A model generated the notes under the pieces. It was not told where the DNA came from, did no database searches, and saw nothing but the letters and a program-made list of their open reading frames with translations. From positions 558,001 to 622,000 of the forward strand of contig NZ_JARVCO010000010.1 of assembly GCF_034531395.1 (NCBI RefSeq): DNA of 64,000 bases. The letters run 5' to 3'. A program made the translations under genes and the position numbers. The stretch is from Pontiella agarivorans. Its GTDB lineage: Bacteria; Verrucomicrobiota; Kiritimatiellia; Kiritimatiellales; Pontiellaceae. Positions 37,299 through 46,602 of the stretch are shown piece by piece. Positions within the stretch are counted from its first letter, which is position 1. Each line of letters begins with the position of its first letter.

Positions 37299-37446
37299 AA
37301 TCCTATTAATCCGGTCATGTTTTCAGGGTTCGGAAGCTACTGGTCTTGCGTCTTTTCGTCAAACCCGCCTTTAAGAAAAGGAAGTGTGAGGTAGAGGTTG
37401 TCGGTAGGATGTGATTTGTGAGAAAAGGATCGAAAGGAAATTCATT

Positions 37447-38076
37447 ATGAAATCATACCTGTATATCTGGATTGGTCTGTTGGCCGGAGCTGTCGGTGCT
37501 GTAATTCTTTCAGAATTGGTCGGCTCGGGGATTCATGGGAAAATGATGAATGAAGGGGGTTGGGTGGAAACTGCTTCGTGGATTTCCTATTTTGTTGCCG
37601 CCTTTTTCATTTTTCTGAAGATGTTGCGTTCGCCCAACCGCTGGAGCATGTTGGCCGGGACCATGCTGCTCGGGATGCGTGAGCTGGATTTTGATAAGCG
37701 CTTTACCACGATGGGCATTTTCAAGAGTCGCTTCTATTCCAGTTCCGACGTGCCGATTCTGGAAAAACTCATTGCGCTGGTGATTACGGCGGTGATTATT
37801 GCCGCTCTGTTTGTTCTGGTTAAAAATCATTTGAAACCTTTTATCCAGAAGGTGAAGGCCCGATCGGGGGCATCGTGCACTGTGCTGCTGGCGGGCGGCC
37901 TGTTGTTTTTTGCCAAATCCATCGACGGGCTATCCCGCAAACTTGAACCGTTCGGGATTGAACCGTCCGATGCCGTCAACCGCATCGCCGGTTCGGTTGA
38001 AGAGTGTTTTGAACTGACGGGCGCGCTGTTGGTTGTCGTGGCGGCCGTGGGCGCTTATCTTCACCGTTCAAAGTAG
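37447..38076 (+). CDS. Uncharacterised membrane protein with conserved-looking acidic motifs
   Basis: This 209-residue protein has about five membrane helices, starting at residue 4. No family was recognised. Acidic or charged clusters lie next to helices: NEGGWVETASW (about 37-47), MRELDFDKRF (about 78-88) and a late SVEECFELTG. The even spacing suggests a buried polar site, as in membrane-embedded hydrolases, but this is only a pattern. AAAGGAAA precedes ATG 37447; the frame starts earlier without a site. It overlaps the end of speA by 16 bases. Confidence 0.75.
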   Translation: MKSYLYIWIGLLAGAVGAVILSELVGSGIHGKMMNEGGWVETASWISYFVAAFFIFLKMLRSPNRWSMLAGTMLLGMRELDFDKRFTTMGIFKSRFYSSSDVPILEKLIALVITAVIIAALFVLVKNHLKPFIQKVKARSGASCTVLLAGGLLFFAKSIDGLSRKLEPFGIEPSDAVNRIAGSVEECFELTGALLVVVAAVGAYLHRSK

Positions 38077-40031
38077 GTGTAGCCCCGCATACCGCTTTCA
38101 AAGGCATCCATAATGCGGCGGCGCTCTTTGGCGGTGATGGCCTCGGTGCGGACGGCGGTTTCGGCGAGCTTGCGAATGCGGCGGATCATATTTTTCGGAT
38201 CATATTCCACGTAGGAGAGCACATCGGCCACGGAGTCGCCTTCGAGTTCGCGGGAATAGTTCAGGTGTCCTTCGCGGTCGACTTCCACGGTGATGACGTT
38301 GGTGTCGCCGAGCAGGTTGTGCAGATCGCCAAGGGTTTCCTGATAGGCGCCGACGAGGAAGACGCCCAGATAATATTCTTCGGCCGTTAAATTATGAAGC
38401 GGCAGGGAGTTGCGCGTCGTGTGCTGTCCGACGAAACGGTCGATTTTTCCATCGCAGTCGCAGGTGATATCGGCCAGCACAACCTCGCGGGTCGGTTTTT
38501 CTTCGAGCCGGTGAATCGGCATCACGGGAAAGAGCTGATCGATCGCCCAGACATCGGGCAGGGACTGGAAGAGGCTGAAATTGCCGTAGTAGATATCAGC
38601 CAGCATGGCCGGCAGCTGACGCAGCTCGTTCGGAATGTATTCCATCTCTTCGGTCAGCTTGGCCACCCGGGTGACGATATGCCAGAAAATGGTGCCGGCC
38701 ATTGCGCGGTCGCGCAGGGTCATGGCGCCGCGTTTGAAGCGTTCGTGAATTTCGTCGCGGTAATAAAAGGCGTCGTGAAAACACTCCTGGGCATTACGCA
38801 GGTTGACGACTTTGACCACGGCCATCAGGTTGTGCAGCAGCTCGTGGGCGTTATCGGGGAGCTCGGTGGGCAGGTTGCTGATCTCGAAACGGCTCTCATC
38901 GAGAATGTTGAAGAGCAGAACTGAATAATAGGCCACGGTCGCCCGCCCGGATTCCGTGACGATGTCGGGGTGGGGCACGTCGGTTTCAGCCAGCGTGCTG
39001 ACGAGGTTTTCCACAATCGCCACGCAGTATTCATCGAGATTATAATTCCGGCTGGTTTCCGAGTCGCCCTGCGAGCCGTCATAATCAACCGCCAGGCCGC
39101 CGCCGAGGTCCAGAATGCCCATGGGCGCCCCTTCTTTGACCAGGCCGATATACACCCGGCAGGCTTCCACCACGGCTTCGCGGATATCGCGGATGTTGGG
39201 AATCTGGGATCCGACGTGATAGTGGAGCAGCTGCAGGCAGTCGAGCATGCCGGCTTCCTTCAGGCGGTCGACAACATCGCATACCTGCGACGGGTTAAGG
39301 CCGAAAACGCTGCGCTCGCCGCCGGAGTGGTTCCAATGTCCGGAAGCCTGGGTGGAGAGTTTCAGGCGGACGCCGATTTTCGGCGGTATATCCAGGATCT
39401 TTGATCGATCGATAATCAATTCAAGTTCCGAGGGGGTTTCCACCACGAAAATGCATTGGAGCCCCATTTTGCAGGCGTAGAGGCCGAGGTCGACAAACTC
39501 CTCGTCTTTGTAGCCGTTGCAGATGAGGTAGGCCTCGGGATCGTGCATGTAGGAGAGGGCCGCGATCAGTTCCGGTTTGCTGCCGGCTTCGAGGCCGTGA
39601 TGGTAGCGGGCACCGAATGCCGTGATTTCTTCAAGCACCTGCTGCTGCTGGTTGACCTTGATCGGGTAGACGCCGCGGTAGTTCCCCCGGTATTCAAATT
39701 CGCTGATGGCCCGGCCGAAGCCTTCGTGCAGGAGTTTGATGCGGGAGTCGAGGATGTCGGAAAAACGCAGCAGAACCGGCATATCCAATCCGCGATCGAC
39801 GAGACCGTCCACGATATGGCGCAGCGAAACGCCGGTGCCGTTACCGTGCGGGTGCACAATGACCTCGCCGGCATCGGATACGCTGAAGTAATCCGCTCCC
39901 CAGTTGTTGATGCCGTACATATCCGCCGACTGCGCGGGTGACCATGCTGTAGAATTCGTTTTCAAGTGGGTCGATATAGGGAGGTTTCCAATGTTTGGAA
40001 AGTCATTTATGTAAAATTGTAGATGCTGCAT
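38061..40031 (-). CDS. speA: Biosynthetic arginine decarboxylase
   Basis: This 656-residue PLP enzyme decarboxylates arginine to agmatine. PLP Lys125 lies in GVYPIKVNQQ. SpeA marks include YGINNWGADYFSV near the start, GLEAGSKPEL, and the late C-terminal GDTNVITVEVDREGH. ATG 40031 gives a roughly 45-residue leader before the conserved core, as in E. coli SpeA; ATG 39920 is an alternative. It supplies agmatine for aguA in the polyamine island some 15 kb away. A TTTCCAANNNTTGGAAA palindrome lies inside the leader at 39985. Confidence 0.93.
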   Translation of the reverse strand: MQHLQFYINDFPNIGNLPISTHLKTNSTAWSPAQSADMYGINNWGADYFSVSDAGEVIVHPHGNGTGVSLRHIVDGLVDRGLDMPVLLRFSDILDSRIKLLHEGFGRAISEFEYRGNYRGVYPIKVNQQQQVLEEITAFGARYHHGLEAGSKPELIAALSYMHDPEAYLICNGYKDEEFVDLGLYACKMGLQCIFVVETPSELELIIDRSKILDIPPKIGVRLKLSTQASGHWNHSGGERSVFGLNPSQVCDVVDRLKEAGMLDCLQLLHYHVGSQIPNIRDIREAVVEACRVYIGLVKEGAPMGILDLGGGLAVDYDGSQGDSETSRNYNLDEYCVAIVENLVSTLAETDVPHPDIVTESGRATVAYYSVLLFNILDESRFEISNLPTELPDNAHELLHNLMAVVKVVNLRNAQECFHDAFYYRDEIHERFKRGAMTLRDRAMAGTIFWHIVTRVAKLTEEMEYIPNELRQLPAMLADIYYGNFSLFQSLPDVWAIDQLFPVMPIHRLEEKPTREVVLADITCDCDGKIDRFVGQHTTRNSLPLHNLTAEEYYLGVFLVGAYQETLGDLHNLLGDTNVITVEVDREGHLNYSRELEGDSVADVLSYVEYDPKNMIRRIRKLAETAVRTEAITAKERRRIMDAFESGMRGYTYFER

Positions 40032-40057
40032 TCTGCTGCGCCGTGAAGATCGGGCTT

Positions 40058-40147
40058 TTATCGCAGGAAGGTGTTGCGCAGTGTTAAGCGGCTCCTCAGC
40101 AAAACCAGGATCAGAAAATACGTTGTAGGCTCGGGTATTCCGGTCAG
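40058..40147 (-). pseudogene. Relic of a PEP-CTERM protein C-terminus
   Basis: Read on the minus strand this stretch encodes TGIPEPTTYFLILVLLR and a basic end, then a stop. That is the PEP-CTERM layout: Pro-Glu-Pro motif, hydrophobic helix, arginine-rich tail. No gene body lies in frame upstream, because the Hsp70-like gene ends at 40144 in another frame. It therefore looks like the last 30 codons of a lost gene. Targets of the exosortase/archaeosortase-like system are common in some PVC bacteria. Confidence 0.55.
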
Positions 40148-42894
40148 CCTGCCAGGTGCAGTCCGGGGGGGAGGGCTTCGCCGAAAGCGCGGTCCTGTTC
40201 TTCGGAATCGAGCAGACCGCCGGTTTCGACGAGCTTTTGCAGTCGGTTCGGCACCTGGTTGGTCTGCATCCACTGCAGGGCTTTTCGGCGTGCGTCATCG
40301 GAAAGGTCGCGATAACGGTCATCGGTTTTTCGCGCGAGATGCATCAGGGCAAAGGCGCACTCCTTGGTGGATCCGTTGAGCTGCATCAGCCGTTCCGCCC
40401 ATTGTTCCGCCGTGTCGGCCGGGACGACGGTATTGAGCGGACCGTAGCTCGGGACCCGGGCGCCGATGCGGCCGAGTGCCCAGACAGCCGCACCGTTGGA
40501 GATGCGGGTCCCTTTTCGTTCGAGCCAGATCAGCAGCAGTTCACCCAGTTGTTCTTTTCTGGCGACCTGCAGGCGTTCGAGCGATCCGAGCAGTCGCCAG
40601 ACTTCGGCGCTCTCGTGATCGCCGAACTGAAATCCGGTGGGCTTGCCGGTTTTCTTTACGCCCGGGTTACGGATCCGCGAATTCCATTGTTTGATCAACG
40701 GATTGGCCAGTTCGAGCTGCTGGTTCTCGGTCAGACCGCCGGCGATGCGCCGCCAGAGAATCCACCATTCGGCACGGCACATTTCATTCCGCAGATGTTC
40801 CACGCCCGCCTGCTTGATGCGCCAGACGTTGGCCACCCGCCAGTCATCGGCGGCAAAGCCGTAGCCCGGCCGCAGAGCATAGCCCGCCAGATTCAGCCAG
40901 CGTGCTTCGAGTTCCGGGGCGGCTTTGCGGCAGTCGCCCAGCAGCAGTGTCTCTTCGAGCCAGCGCCGCAGCAGAGCCGGCGGCCATTCACTGCGGTCGA
41001 GGCCGGTGTTTTCTTCCAGTTTTTTGAAGAGCCCTTTGGAGGCCTCCTTCTGGCCGGCATGCAGCATTGCGCGGATCACGCCGATGCTCGAGGCGGCCAT
41101 GGATTCGTCCATCACACCGGCCCGGTTGGCGGTATCCTCTTCGACTGCCCGATCGGTCTGGGTGGCGGCGCGGGCATCGAACTGCAACTGCCACGAGCGG
41201 TTGCCGCCCTGTTCCTCCAGCCAGACTTCAATGGTGCCGATGGCTGTAAGTTTGGCGAGCAGCTGAACGTTGACCTGATCGGCGGTTTTCTTTTTTCCGG
41301 AGTTGATGACGGTTTTAATCGACGGCATCGGGCGCATCGTTTCTTCATCGATCGGCAGCAGATCTCCCGGGCGGTCCGTGGTGCGGGTGCCGGAGGTGAA
41401 GAGCGAAAATTCCACCGGCTGGCGGATATACAGCCGGAAGGTGCGGTCGGTCAGCGGGACGGTTTCGCCCTCTTCGAGTCCGGCCGGCAGCAGGCAGATG
41501 GCCGAAGGTTCGCCGCGGTCCTGTCCGACGCCAAGATAGTAGGTGCGCGCGAGGCCGCCGGTGATGCGTGTGCCCTGACCCCGGCGGATGCGTCCGTATT
41601 CGGCCGCTCCGCAGGCCACGGCCAGATTCAGGCGGTCGGCCTGCAGCACCTGCGGTTTCCAGTCGAGCGCTTTTTCCAGCACGTCCAGCAGGCGGCGGCG
41701 CAGTCCGGCCGATTCAAAAAAGCCGCCGTTAAACAGAATGTAGTCGGGGCGCACGTTGCCGTGTTCCGCGAGAAAGGCCGTCAGGTAGCGGGTGATGCCG
41801 GCGTCGGGTGCGTAGGGCAAGCCGAATTCCTGAAAGCCGGACTGGCGAACGTCGGGGCGGTCGCCCGCCGCAACTTCGGGCAGGAAGCCGTCGATCAGCA
41901 GCTGCGCCACTTCATCGCGTTCCAGCTCCACCTGCCGGCTGTCGCCGACCACGCTGCGTCCGCGGGCGGGCAGCTGAATGGTATAATTTTCCGGTGCGTC
42001 TGCTCCGAGCAGGGCTTCTTTGGCCTGTTGGCAGCGACGGACCAGAATACTCCAGACCGCCGGCGCCAGTTTGCTGCCGCCTAGTTTTTTCTCGACGTGA
42101 TACGCCAGCGCCAGATCGAGATTGTCGCCGCCGAGCAGCAGGTGTTCGCCGACGGCGACGCGGCGATAGGTGAGCGGGGCATCTTTGCTTGCTTCCGTTT
42201 CAATAAGCGTCAGGTCGGTGGTGCCGCCGCCGATATCGCAGACGAGAATAGACTGTCCCGCCTCCATGCCGGAGGTTTTCCGGTGTTTGCGCATCCAGGC
42301 ATAAAATGCGGCCTGCGGTTCTTCGAGCAGGCAAAGGCGCGGAAGTCCTGCTGCGCGGGCGGCATCGACGGTCAGTTCGCGCGCCACTTCGTCGAACGAG
42401 GCCGGTACGGTCAGCACCAGATCCTGTTCCGCCAGCGGGGCTTCCGGGTGGGCATGATCCCATGCACGGCGGATGTGTTCGAGGTAGCGCCGACTCGCTT
42501 CGCCGGGGGACAGTTTGTTTACGTCCGGTGCGCCGTGCCACGGCAGCAATTCGGCTTTGCGGTCAACGCCGCTGTGGCTCAGCCACGATTTGGCGGAAAC
42601 GGCCAGACGGCCGGGGACGGCGGCACCATGCTCGCGCGCCAGTATGCCGACCACGGGCGCATGGCTGCTCCACGGCAGCGCTGTGGCTTCGGCTTCGAAT
42701 TCGCCCTGGGCCGGTTCGTAGTGAAATGACGGCAGCGATTCGCGTGCTTCAACCGTTCCCGGCGCCACCAGTTGCGGTACCGCAAAGGGGGCGACGGCAA
42801 AGTTTTTCTGCTGCATGTCGATATAAGCGACGGCCGAATTGGTGGTTCCCAAATCGATCCCTACGACATACCGGGCTTCTATGTCGGGATTCAT
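40144..42894 (-). CDS. Hsp70-like chaperone with DUF3731 C-terminal region
   Basis: This 916-residue protein has an N-terminal Hsp70/actin-fold ATPase (VGIDLGTTNSAVAY at about residue 9, VLTVPASFDEVAREL, SILVCDIGGGTTDLTL) but no standard substrate-binding domain. The C-terminal half (about 560-916), with helical repeats such as WALGRIGARVPSYGPLN, resembles the DUF3731 Hsp70 group. ATG 42894 begins four bases after the companion Hsp70 gene; the frame is open further upstream over that gene but with non-coding character. A distinct client or regulatory role is likely; no J-protein or GrpE is encoded nearby. Confidence 0.88.
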   Translation of the reverse strand: MNPDIEARYVVGIDLGTTNSAVAYIDMQQKNFAVAPFAVPQLVAPGTVEARESLPSFHYEPAQGEFEAEATALPWSSHAPVVGILAREHGAAVPGRLAVSAKSWLSHSGVDRKAELLPWHGAPDVNKLSPGEASRRYLEHIRRAWDHAHPEAPLAEQDLVLTVPASFDEVARELTVDAARAAGLPRLCLLEEPQAAFYAWMRKHRKTSGMEAGQSILVCDIGGGTTDLTLIETEASKDAPLTYRRVAVGEHLLLGGDNLDLALAYHVEKKLGGSKLAPAVWSILVRRCQQAKEALLGADAPENYTIQLPARGRSVVGDSRQVELERDEVAQLLIDGFLPEVAAGDRPDVRQSGFQEFGLPYAPDAGITRYLTAFLAEHGNVRPDYILFNGGFFESAGLRRRLLDVLEKALDWKPQVLQADRLNLAVACGAAEYGRIRRGQGTRITGGLARTYYLGVGQDRGEPSAICLLPAGLEEGETVPLTDRTFRLYIRQPVEFSLFTSGTRTTDRPGDLLPIDEETMRPMPSIKTVINSGKKKTADQVNVQLLAKLTAIGTIEVWLEEQGGNRSWQLQFDARAATQTDRAVEEDTANRAGVMDESMAASSIGVIRAMLHAGQKEASKGLFKKLEENTGLDRSEWPPALLRRWLEETLLLGDCRKAAPELEARWLNLAGYALRPGYGFAADDWRVANVWRIKQAGVEHLRNEMCRAEWWILWRRIAGGLTENQQLELANPLIKQWNSRIRNPGVKKTGKPTGFQFGDHESAEVWRLLGSLERLQVARKEQLGELLLIWLERKGTRISNGAAVWALGRIGARVPSYGPLNTVVPADTAEQWAERLMQLNGSTKECAFALMHLARKTDDRYRDLSDDARRKALQWMQTNQVPNRLQKLVETGGLLDSEEQDRAFGEALPPGLHLAG

Positions 42895-42898
42895 CGGA

Positions 42899-44632
42899 TT
42901 AATCTTCACGGACGCTGAATTCGAGTTTCCAACGGTGGTCGGTGAGGGTGCTGACGCACCAGAGCTCGAAGATGCCGAGCTCGGTGACGCGCGATTCGAA
43001 GCGGACGGGAATATAGCCGTCTTCAATGCCTTCGGCCGCCGGAAGTTCCGCTTCGAGTGAGTCGGTTTCCTGCAGTTCTTCTTCGGTCCACGAGGCGAGC
43101 AGATCGCCGGGTTTGTCGTCCTTGCGTACAGCCGAACTGAGCACGCGGAAGTGGGCCGGCTCGCCGGTGACGAGGCCGAACTCTTCTCCGGGCACCTGAA
43201 TTTCAGTGCCTTCCTCCATGCCGGCGGGTACGACGCAGAAGGCGTTGAGCGGGCGCGGTGCGCCGGGGATGGCAAGGCCGGCGGTTTCGATTCCGAGATA
43301 GTAGGCACGGGCGGTGCCGCCGCGGATGCGCAGGCCGCCGCTATGTTTGGCGGCGGCATAAAATGCACCGCCGGTTGCGACGGCGTGGTCGAGGTCTTCG
43401 TTGCCGTCGAGCAGCTGCGGCGCTTCGCCGAACCAGCGGCCCATCAGTTCCATCAGACGGTTTTTGAAGAGGTCCGATTTAAAGACGCCGCCGTTGAAGA
43501 GTACGTGCGTCGGGCGGACGGATACGCCGTCTTCAGCGTGCATGCCGAGGAAGGCTGCGAGGTGGCGGGTGATGGCGGTGTCGTGCTCGTAGGGAAGCCC
43601 CAGTTCACGGAAGCCGGAGAGGCGCGCACGCTGCGGGCGGTCTTCCAGTCCGCAGACCGGAAAGAAACCTTCGAGCAGTGCGCTGGAAATCTGCTGCTTG
43701 TCGAGGTCGACGGAAATATTGCCGCCGATCACTTTGCGGCCGCGGCCAAGGACGGTGACGGGATGCGTCTGGGCACCGTCGGCCGAGAGCAGGTCTTCTT
43801 TGGCCTGGCGGCAGGCATGCCACAGGGCGGTCGACTGCCAGGCGTCCACGTTAACGCCTTTTTCAGCAAAGGCCTGCTGGGCAATGTGGGCGGTGAGCAG
43901 GTCCATGTTGTCGCCGCCTACGAGAATGTGGTTGCCGACGGCAACGCGGCGCAGGACGAGTTCACCGTCTTCGTCCTCTACGCGAACGAGGGTGAAGTCG
44001 GTGGTACCGCCGCCGACATCGCAGACGAGCAGCGTGTCATCTTTGCTGAGCTGCTTGCGCCAGGCATCGCCGATTTGCGCGAGCCAGGCGTAGACGGCCG
44101 ACTGGGGTTCTTCGAGCAGGATGTAATGATCGGGGAGTCCGGCGTCTTTAGCCGCCTGACTGGTCAGCTCGCGGGCGGAGGCATCGAACGATGCAGGTAC
44201 GGTGAGCACGACCTGCTGTTCGGCGAAGGGGGCATCGGGAAAGCGGGAGTTCCAGGCATTGGAAAGATGCTGAAGGTAGCGCTTTGAGGCTTCGACCGGA
44301 GAGCACTTTTCAACGTCTTCGGGGGCGCCCCACGGCAGGATGGCATCGTGGCGGTCGACGCGGCTGTGGCAGAGCCACGATTTGGCGGCGGCGACGGTAC
44401 GGCCGGGCTGTTCGGCGGCGCGGCGGCGGGCCTGTTCGCCGACGTTCCAGCTGCCGTCGGTGTCGATATGCATGAAAGAGGGCAGGGTGGTACGCGCTTC
44501 TTCGGTGGCTTCGTCGACGAGCTGCGTGATGGGCAGACACTGCACCGGGGCATTGTCGGTTTCGAGGCTGCGATAGGCGAGCGCCGAGTTGGTGGTGCCC
44601 AGGTCGATTCCAATGGCATATTTTGAATTCAT
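42899..44632 (-). CDS. Hsp70-like chaperone (companion of the DUF3731 protein)
   Basis: This 577-residue Hsp70-family ATPase has IGIDLGTTNSALAY at the start, VLTVPASFDASAREL, LLVCDVGGGTTDFTLV and the hinge region near VLFNGGVFKS. After the nucleotide-binding domain there is only a short beta-type region and no helical lid, so it is smaller than DnaK. It pairs with the longer Hsp70 downstream (four-base gap) and the DUF2760 gene upstream. GGAGGA before ATG 44632 is strong. The two are paralogs with the same ATPase motifs, probably forming one complex. Confidence 0.9.
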   Translation of the reverse strand: MNSKYAIGIDLGTTNSALAYRSLETDNAPVQCLPITQLVDEATEEARTTLPSFMHIDTDGSWNVGEQARRRAAEQPGRTVAAAKSWLCHSRVDRHDAILPWGAPEDVEKCSPVEASKRYLQHLSNAWNSRFPDAPFAEQQVVLTVPASFDASARELTSQAAKDAGLPDHYILLEEPQSAVYAWLAQIGDAWRKQLSKDDTLLVCDVGGGTTDFTLVRVEDEDGELVLRRVAVGNHILVGGDNMDLLTAHIAQQAFAEKGVNVDAWQSTALWHACRQAKEDLLSADGAQTHPVTVLGRGRKVIGGNISVDLDKQQISSALLEGFFPVCGLEDRPQRARLSGFRELGLPYEHDTAITRHLAAFLGMHAEDGVSVRPTHVLFNGGVFKSDLFKNRLMELMGRWFGEAPQLLDGNEDLDHAVATGGAFYAAAKHSGGLRIRGGTARAYYLGIETAGLAIPGAPRPLNAFCVVPAGMEEGTEIQVPGEEFGLVTGEPAHFRVLSSAVRKDDKPGDLLASWTEEELQETDSLEAELPAAEGIEDGYIPVRFESRVTELGIFELWCVSTLTDHRWKLEFSVRED

Positions 44633-44712
44633 ATAATTCCTCCTCCGCAGATGCGGATTCGATGAATGAAAAGGGGGCAATAAAGACCCTGATAAGGGGG
44701 TTCAGGGAGCGT

Positions 44713-45195
44713 TTAGAGTTCGATTTCGGCGGGAGCGATGATTCTGGCGGCATCGTCGGAGCCCTGCCAGACGGGCAGGTCGAGTTTGGAGGCGGTCCAG
44801 CCCGGATGCATCAGTTCCCCGGAATAGGGGGCTTCGCCGGAAACGTTGCCGGTCAGTTTGATGGCCGCGGCATCGAATCCGGCGGGGACCGTGATCTTTG
44901 TGCCTTCGTCTTCGGTGCGCAGCGGCTGGAGCGCAAAGACGCGTTCCAGCACTTTGCGGCTGTCGGCCTGAATATCGCGCACGGCGGCCGCGACCTGCTG
45001 GTCGGAATAGCCGTCGAGCGGCTCCATCAGAAAGTCAACGAGCCGCGCTTCGCGCTGCAGAGCGGCCAGTAATGTAAGGGCTTCGCTGCGCGGCGGCTTG
45101 GCGGCGGGAGTTTCCTGTTTTTCGGCTGCCATTGCAGGCGCACCGGATTTCAGGGTTGAGAAAAAGGCTTTGAAGGCCAGTCCCAGTTTGTTCAT
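44713..45195 (-). CDS. DUF2760 protein, associated with Hsp70 pair
   Basis: This 160-residue protein matches the DUF2760 family: a short amphipathic start (LGLAFKAFFSTL), an Ala/Pro-rich linker, then LTLLAALQREARLVDFLMEPLDGYSDQQVAAAVRDI, which is the family's most typical stretch. Its role is unknown. It is the first gene of a minus-strand operon with the two unusual Hsp70 proteins, a set that recurs in other bacteria, so it is likely a cofactor or client adaptor. GGAG lies before the start. Confidence 0.85.
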   Translation of the reverse strand: MNKLGLAFKAFFSTLKSGAPAMAAEKQETPAAKPPRSEALTLLAALQREARLVDFLMEPLDGYSDQQVAAAVRDIQADSRKVLERVFALQPLRTEDEGTKITVPAGFDAAAIKLTGNVSGEAPYSGELMHPGWTASKLDLPVWQGSDDAARIIAPAEIEL

Positions 45196-45278
45196 TTTAA
45201 AGTCTCCGGAAAAAATTATAATTCAGGGGCGCTTCGTGCGCCGGGAAGCCGTCAACGTATGCAATCCTTTGGTAAAGT

Positions 45279-45298
45279 AAAGCGCAACCGTGCGCTTT
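45279..45298. terminator. Perfect hairpin between DUF2760 and ApgM-like genes
   Basis: AAAGCGCA, a four-base loop ACCG, then TGCGCTTT form a perfect 8-bp stem in the divergent gap upstream of the phosphomutase gene. No T-run follows directly on the plus strand. It may be a leader hairpin or an operator. Confidence 0.4.
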
Positions 45299-45402
45299 GT
45301 GTACAAAGCGATAGGCAGGTGGAGGCAAATAGATGCGGTATGGAATTGCCTTTTGAAGGGTTTTCGGCGAAATTCCCGCGCAATTATGTGGAGATTTTCT
45401 CG

Positions 45403-46602
45403 ATGAAGTATGTGTTTTTATGTGGCGACGGGATGGGTGACTATCCGGTTGAGGCGCTGGGTAATAAAACCCCGTTGCAGGCGGCAAACTGTCCGACGAT
45501 TCGGAAATTTGCGGCTTTGGGCGAAACGCGTATGGTTCAAACGGTTCCGGACGGTCTGCCGCCTGGAAGCGATGTCGCCAACATGGCCTTGCTTGGATAT
45601 GATGCGTCCCTGAATTATACGGGGCGTGCGCCGATCGAGGCTGCCGGTGCGGATCTTCCCATGAACCCGACGGATGTGGCATTTCGCTGCAACCTGGTCA
45701 CAGTGACCGAAGACGGGATCATGGATGATTATTCCGCCGGACACATTACGACAGAGGAGGCGCATGCTCTCGTGCATTCGCTTCAGGAAGCACTCGGAAC
45801 GGACGGACTGACCTTTCATCCGGGTGTGCAGTACCGCCATATTCTCGTTTGGAATCATGGCCCTGCGGAGTGCCATTGCGAGCCTCCGCATGAATTCACC
45901 GATAAGCCGGTTGCTGAAAATCTGCCGGCGGGAAATCGGGAGGATGAGATCCGCGATTTAATGGAAAAATCGAAAGCAGTGTTTGCGGATCATCCGGTAA
46001 ATCAGAAGCGTATTGCGGAAGGCAAAAAGCCCGCAACGCAGATCTGGCTGTGGGGGCAGGGAAATGCCATGCAGCTGGAAACGTACAAGGCCCTTTACGG
46101 TCTCGGCGGCGGTGTAATCTCCGCCGTTGACCTGTTGAAGGGCATTGCAAAACTGGCCGGTTTGGAAGCACCCGATGTTGAAGGTGCGACCGGCTTCCTG
46201 GATACCAACTATCAGGGCAAAATCGACGCGGCGTTTGAGATTCTTGAGCGGGAGGACTTTGTCTACGTTCATATCGAGGCGCCCGACGAGTGCGGTCATA
46301 TGGGTGACGCAGAAAAGAAAACCTTCGCCATCGAAGAGTTCGACGCAAAAGTATGTGCGCCGGTTTTCCAATGGTTGGAAAGCCGCGGCGAAGACTACAC
46401 CCTGGTGCTGTGCACCGATCACCGCACACCGGTGGCCCTCAAAGGGCATACCTCCGAGCCCGTTCCCATGACGGTCGTGAAAGGACCGGTGGGGAACATT
46501 GAAAAGCAGGCCCCGTTTGACGAAGAGGTCAACGGAGGAAATGCACAGGGCATGGCCTGCCTTTGGATACAGGATATATTGAAAAATGCATCATCCGACT
46601 GA
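45403..46602 (+). CDS. apgM: Cofactor-independent phosphoglycerate mutase (ApgM-like), possibly homoserine kinase type
   Basis: This 399-residue alkaline-phosphatase-superfamily protein has metal-binding GDGMGDYP at the start and the phospho-accepting Ser56 in LPPGSDVANMALLGYD. Later metal ligands are seen in APDECGHMGD and CTDHRTPV. Its length and phrases also match the group annotated as proposed homoserine kinase, and two transsulfuration-type genes lie 8 kb away. So either 2- to 3-phosphoglycerate isomerisation or homoserine phosphorylation is possible. ATG 45403 begins the conserved core; upstream sequence in frame has no family match. Confidence 0.82.
   Translation: MKYVFLCGDGMGDYPVEALGNKTPLQAANCPTIRKFAALGETRMVQTVPDGLPPGSDVANMALLGYDASLNYTGRAPIEAAGADLPMNPTDVAFRCNLVTVTEDGIMDDYSAGHITTEEAHALVHSLQEALGTDGLTFHPGVQYRHILVWNHGPAECHCEPPHEFTDKPVAENLPAGNREDEIRDLMEKSKAVFADHPVNQKRIAEGKKPATQIWLWGQGNAMQLETYKALYGLGGGVISAVDLLKGIAKLAGLEAPDVEGATGFLDTNYQGKIDAAFEILEREDFVYVHIEAPDECGHMGDAEKKTFAIEEFDAKVCAPVFQWLESRGEDYTLVLCTDHRTPVALKGHTSEPVPMTVVKGPVGNIEKQAPFDEEVNGGNAQGMACLWIQDILKNASSD

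Follow-up and report, generated by a model that had tools for sequence, protein, structure and literature searches.

A DUF2760 protein and two Hsp70 proteins, HspA and HspB, are encoded by one operon in a Pontiellaceae-type genome, and comparison across genomes strongly supports the view that they form one three-part functional unit. We propose that this unit is a membrane-tethered Hsp70 pair that would work independently of J-proteins and GrpE, with DUF2760 as its anchor and adaptor, a reading to which we give a probability of about 0.45.

The window analysed here, a stretch of 64 kb, carries the three genes on the minus strand at 40144-45195 in the order DUF2760, HspA, HspB. Open reading frames and Pfam searches confirmed both the positions and the family assignments given in an earlier note on this DNA. 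The first gene (44713-45195) encodes the 160-aa DUF2760 protein (PF10816, E=5.8e-46, 155.8 bits). HspA follows (42899-44632, 577 aa; PF00012, E=1.2e-18), and only 4 bases separate its stop codon from the ATG of HspB (40144-42894, 916 aa), which matches PF00012 together with DUF3731 (PF12531, E=3.7e-80, 269.8 bits); the scores of both DUF families are above the Pfam gathering cut-off of 25. The closest named relative of HspB belongs to a Pontiellaceae MAG. The genome (4.4 Mb in 12 contigs) contains one DnaK (C10:920050) besides HspA and HspB, and its fourth PF00012 match is a 346-aa frame. No J-domain or GrpE gene was found in the window, as the same note had observed of the immediate surroundings; the only two J-domain proteins of the genome (C10:322760 and C10:193182, one of them DnaJ) and its only GrpE (C10:322230) are located at least 235 kb from the triad.

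In order to follow the families across genomes, we used a phylum sample of 289 genomes, at least 90% complete, and a second sample of 149 genomes from the class of a planctomycete. In the phylum sample DUF3731 was detected in 51 genomes and DUF2760 in 49, all 49 of which also carried DUF3731 (phi 0.98). The planctomycete class gave a similar picture, with 104 carriers of DUF3731 and 105 of DUF2760, of which 102 were shared, 5 genomes being discordant and 42 having neither (phi 0.92). An HspA profile (E<=1e-60) matched 50 phylum genomes, namely the 51 DUF3731 genomes minus G026, although this profile also picks up HspB, and in G332 only the HspB match was seen. G026, which is of the same genus, retains HspA and HspB as short adjacent fragments (L035:8190-9034) and has no DUF2760, as if the set had decayed jointly. 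At 25 named loci HspB stands without HspA, and at least 21 of these genomes have DUF2760 elsewhere. In one genome assembled as a single contig (G160) the three genes lie apart, at 2.10, 3.90 and 4.16 Mb. Since co-occurrence persists where the genes stand hundreds of kilobases apart, linkage is not its cause. The distance matrices of the three proteins were also correlated (r=0.75-0.92; none of 500 permutations reached such values), a correlation of which part reflects common ancestry. At the level of gene content, the three families were thereby shown to be gained and lost together. Independent distribution, which the earlier note had named as the outcome that would count against it, is contradicted by this survey. 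The Hsp70 pair occurs in about 70% of the sampled genomes of the planctomycete class and also in Verrucomicrobiota, Fibrobacterota and Proteobacteria; the triad is common to many environmental bacteria.

We then compared the architecture of the two Hsp70 proteins. HspA aligns over its full length with residues 1-575 of HspB at about 40% identity, and the two are therefore paralogues, whose common part comprises the ATPase domain plus some 140 residues beyond it. HspA consists of a nucleotide-binding domain up to about residue 436 and a beta substrate domain, after which it stops. In a joint alignment with DnaK, HscA and HscC of E. coli its end falls at about DnaK 505, where the lid begins, so that the description of HspA as an Hsp70 without helical lid was correct; HspB extends past this point into DUF3731. 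An AlphaFold2 model of HspB from 55 sequences (pLDDT 84, pTM 0.80) shows the ATPase domain (residues 1-440, 41575-42894, minus strand, also supported by residue conservation and Foldseek), followed by eight strands at 448-573, a joint of low confidence at 575-594 and an all-helical part at 597-904. The strands correspond to the beta substrate domain (residues ~448-575, 41170-41553, minus strand), and the helical C-terminal region including DUF3731 (residues 597-916, 40147-41106, minus strand) stands at the position of the lid. The best-superposing Foldseek matches of HspB were lid-truncated Hsp70s over about 600 columns, such as BiP (6eoc, TM 0.74 on the target) and DnaK (7kzu, 0.72). A beta substrate domain thus follows the ATPase domain in both proteins, as is typical of the Hsp70 superfamily, on the evidence of model and Foldseek for HspB and of homology for HspA. 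Because HspA ends at the lid start and HspB goes on from there into DUF3731, the latter takes the place of the lid and not that of the substrate domain, as the earlier note had wrongly supposed. Neither protein has the helical lid (SBD alpha) of canonical DnaK, HscA and HscC. As to DUF3731 itself, no PDB relative was found by sequence; the fold search was run with whole HspB as the query, and Hsp70s dominated its matches in both libraries, so that it reports on the Hsp70 part rather than on DUF3731 separately. HEAT_PBS was matched below threshold by 5 of 9 members (best E=0.023), which hints at an alpha-solenoid.

Residue conservation was examined in 35 HspA and 55 HspB sequences (DnaK numbering). 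The catalytic residues K70, E171, D194, T199 and D201 were present in 35/35 HspA sequences; in HspB all were found in 55/55, except T199 in 54/55. G196-G198 were also invariant or nearly so in both families. Both proteins thus have the actin-fold ATPase of the superfamily with its catalytic residues. R167, Q378, D393, D477 and D481 make J-domain or interdomain contacts in DnaK (PMC7289447, PMC8215388). In both HspA and HspB, R167, N170, T173, Q378, D393 and D481 were replaced, usually by residues common to the two families, D477 was mostly charge-reversed, and the hydrophobic interdomain linker VLLLD was replaced, so that this canonical equipment is missing. Two cleft salt bridges of DnaK, K55-E267 and R56-E264, are lost in HscA, where their loss is tied to GrpE independence (PMC8215388). 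They were broken in both families here, E267 being R or Q and E264 being H or mostly R. At the level of aligned residues, these data show that HspA and HspB have intact ATPase sites and lack the canonical J-docking residues, the hydrophobic linker and the GrpE-linked salt bridges.

Two other explanations have to be weighed against these residues. Hsp70s usually depend on J-proteins, and the genome does encode a single GrpE and two J proteins, one of which is DnaJ; HspA and HspB could therefore be specialised Hsp70s that still use housekeeping DnaJ/CbpA and GrpE, with DUF2760 as a substrate or regulator. The shared loss of J-contact residues and the broken salt bridges argue against this explanation, which we consider improbable, although the loss of the canonical contacts would still be compatible with a J-protein bound in another way. 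Alternatively, the two proteins may be no folding machine at all, and instead serve as ATP-switched scaffolds of a dedicated assembly that bind no unfolded clients. In line with this, the positions aligned with the peptide arch and pocket of DnaK (M404, F426 and A429) do not show the conservation seen there, and there is a precedent in Ssz1, a known non-canonical Hsp70 partner (PMC8476630, PMC7083937). However, the alignment of the substrate domains to DnaK is uncertain at such distance, and the catalytic sites and beta domains of the two proteins show strong conservation, so that a pure scaffold is equally hard to favour. The eukaryotic ribosome-associated complex, Ssz1-Zuo1 with Ssb, resembles the triad in combining two Hsp70s, one of them non-canonical, with a partner that tethers the assembly to its site; Zuo1, however, has a J-domain and binds ribosomes, whereas a Pfam search found no J-domain in DUF2760.

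A 2021 review distinguishes three prokaryotic Hsp70 types (PMC8215388). In our tree HspA and HspB formed a clade separate from DnaK, HscA and HscC with support 100/100, the HscC row being long-branched, and with 82-99 bits they stayed far below the HscA NCBIfam cut-offs of 620-709 bits. On the tested features they are members of the Hsp70 superfamily outside the DnaK, HscA and HscC types. With DnaK, which works with DnaJ and GrpE, they share a beta substrate domain and a nucleotide-binding domain in which every catalytic residue is kept; they differ from it in the absent lid of HspA and its replacement by DUF3731 in HspB, in the lost J contacts, linker and GrpE-related salt bridges, and in that the triad comprises two obligate paralogues plus DUF2760. 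HscA (with HscB) and HscC (with membrane-anchored DjlB/DjlC) are likewise bacterial Hsp70s that have specialised and have partners of their own, and the partners of HscC are membrane-anchored, as we propose for DUF2760. In contrast to the triad, both use J-domain partners and keep R167/N170/T173/Q378/D393, and the triad stands on its separate, fully supported branch. It is conceivable, at somewhat less than even odds, that the triad represents a fourth bacterial Hsp70 machine besides these three, a J- and GrpE-free pair with DUF3731 in place of the lid and a membrane-tethered DUF2760 for targeting.

The model of DUF2760 (pLDDT 90) consists of an N-terminal helix at 3-16, a helical pair and small strands, and no match was found among the solved folds in the PDB. 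Its N-terminal aromatic/basic helix (residues 1-20, 45136-45195, minus strand) is the putative membrane-binding element. Nearly every homologue shows the motif M-x-R-x-x-x-A-F-x-x-F-F-x-x-L-F there, and a Pro/Ala-rich arm comes after it. In the Bradyrhizobium plasmid copies and at L082, two long hydrophobic segments, TM-like by hydropathy alone, take the place of this helix; with two such segments the DUF2760 core would come to lie in the cytoplasm again, on the side of the Hsp70s. In some members the amphipathic character of the helix is no more than moderate. Because of the N-terminal conservation and the TM-like segments in two lineages, DUF2760 is probably anchored to the membrane via this helix. 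These features also bear on an explanation after Hsp110, in which HspA would be the chaperone, HspB its nucleotide exchange factor and DUF2760 a soluble J-like activator with no membrane role. In layout HspB relates to HspA as Hsp110 does to Hsp70, being the larger of two sister proteins and bearing a helical extension, which could act on the nucleotide-binding domain of the partner; Sse1 and the Hsp110:Hsc70 complex were among the Foldseek matches. HspBP1, which also acts on Hsp70, is an alpha-solenoid exchange factor. In contrast, DUF3731 has no PDB sequence relative, HspB is bacterial and its exchange activity is only putative. A soluble activator accords poorly with the conserved N-terminal element and the TM-like segments, and we regard this explanation as rather unlikely.

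No recurrent fourth gene was found near the triad loci, the best cluster (8 loci) looking like an abundant planctomycete family, and no client-like neighbour recurred around them. In the window, a 221-aa open frame without Pfam match (37411-38076) lies between the triad region and a gene for a Cys/Met PLP enzyme. No CIRCE element indicating heat-shock control was found, nor a sigma-70-like promoter in 40000-45500. A palindrome upstream of DUF2760 (GGCGC-ACGAA-GCGCC, 45228-45242, minus strand) possibly acts as an operator or leader hairpin; four relatives keep it as GGCAC-N5-GTGCC, one compensatory pair change from GGCGC-N5-GCGCC, within a longer conserved block. The triad adjoins a groES-groEL pair on pCB82_1, a Bradyrhizobium plasmid that was typed as conjugative (L163:9857-11901). 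A Thiodictyon plasmid (L118:1-9839) carries DUF2760 and HspA and lacks HspB; the adjacent genes have an anti-phage annotation. That copy, and the presence of two triads on plasmids typed conjugative, could suggest a function in phage defence or on mobile elements. The only PADLOC match, however, was a weak one over the ATPase core (PDC-M61B, 26.6 bits), no defence neighbour recurred at triad loci, and no full-length match was found among 50,697 phage records; the triad thus has neither the defence profile nor the recurrent defence neighbourhood of known anti-phage systems, and such a function is very improbable. A GTPase/tubulin/Hsp70 conflict system (PMC7159879) was considered and dropped, its other components not being seen. 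As to expression, a 65 kDa 'Hsp70 family protein' of B. pseudomallei was detected by mass spectrometry (PMC7085900). Because the forward qPCR primer of that study aligns in frame to HspA of B. multivorans (three mismatches) and the protein masses are consistent, this protein is probably an HspA homologue; the reverse primer found no match. A literature search on DUF3731, DUF2760, PF12531 and PF10816 found no described function, which bears out the statement of the earlier note that none is known for this set.

For the membrane-tethered pair we suggest the following mode of action. The operon would specify one three-part Hsp70 machine apart from DnaK, its parts forming a physical complex. The N-terminal helix of DUF2760, replaced in some lineages by the two TM-like segments, would hold this protein at the cytoplasmic side of the inner membrane, and the flexible Pro/Ala-rich arm would present the conserved core of DUF2760 to HspA and HspB; in this way DUF2760 would provide the targeting that DnaK receives from J-proteins. 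HspA may bind client segments only transiently, since it has no lid. HspB would be its ATP-dependent partner, in which the helical DUF3731 would either clamp the client or act on the nucleotide-binding domain of HspA, like Hsp110 or HspBP1 on Hsp70. Likely clients would be membrane or membrane-associated proteins.

Hsp70s are considered unable to work without J-domain partners. A widespread Hsp70 pair that has kept its ATPase and dropped the J-domain and GrpE interfaces makes it directly testable whether an Hsp70 can be driven by a factor other than a J-domain protein, and it gives two domains of unknown function, DUF3731 and DUF2760, a concrete setting.
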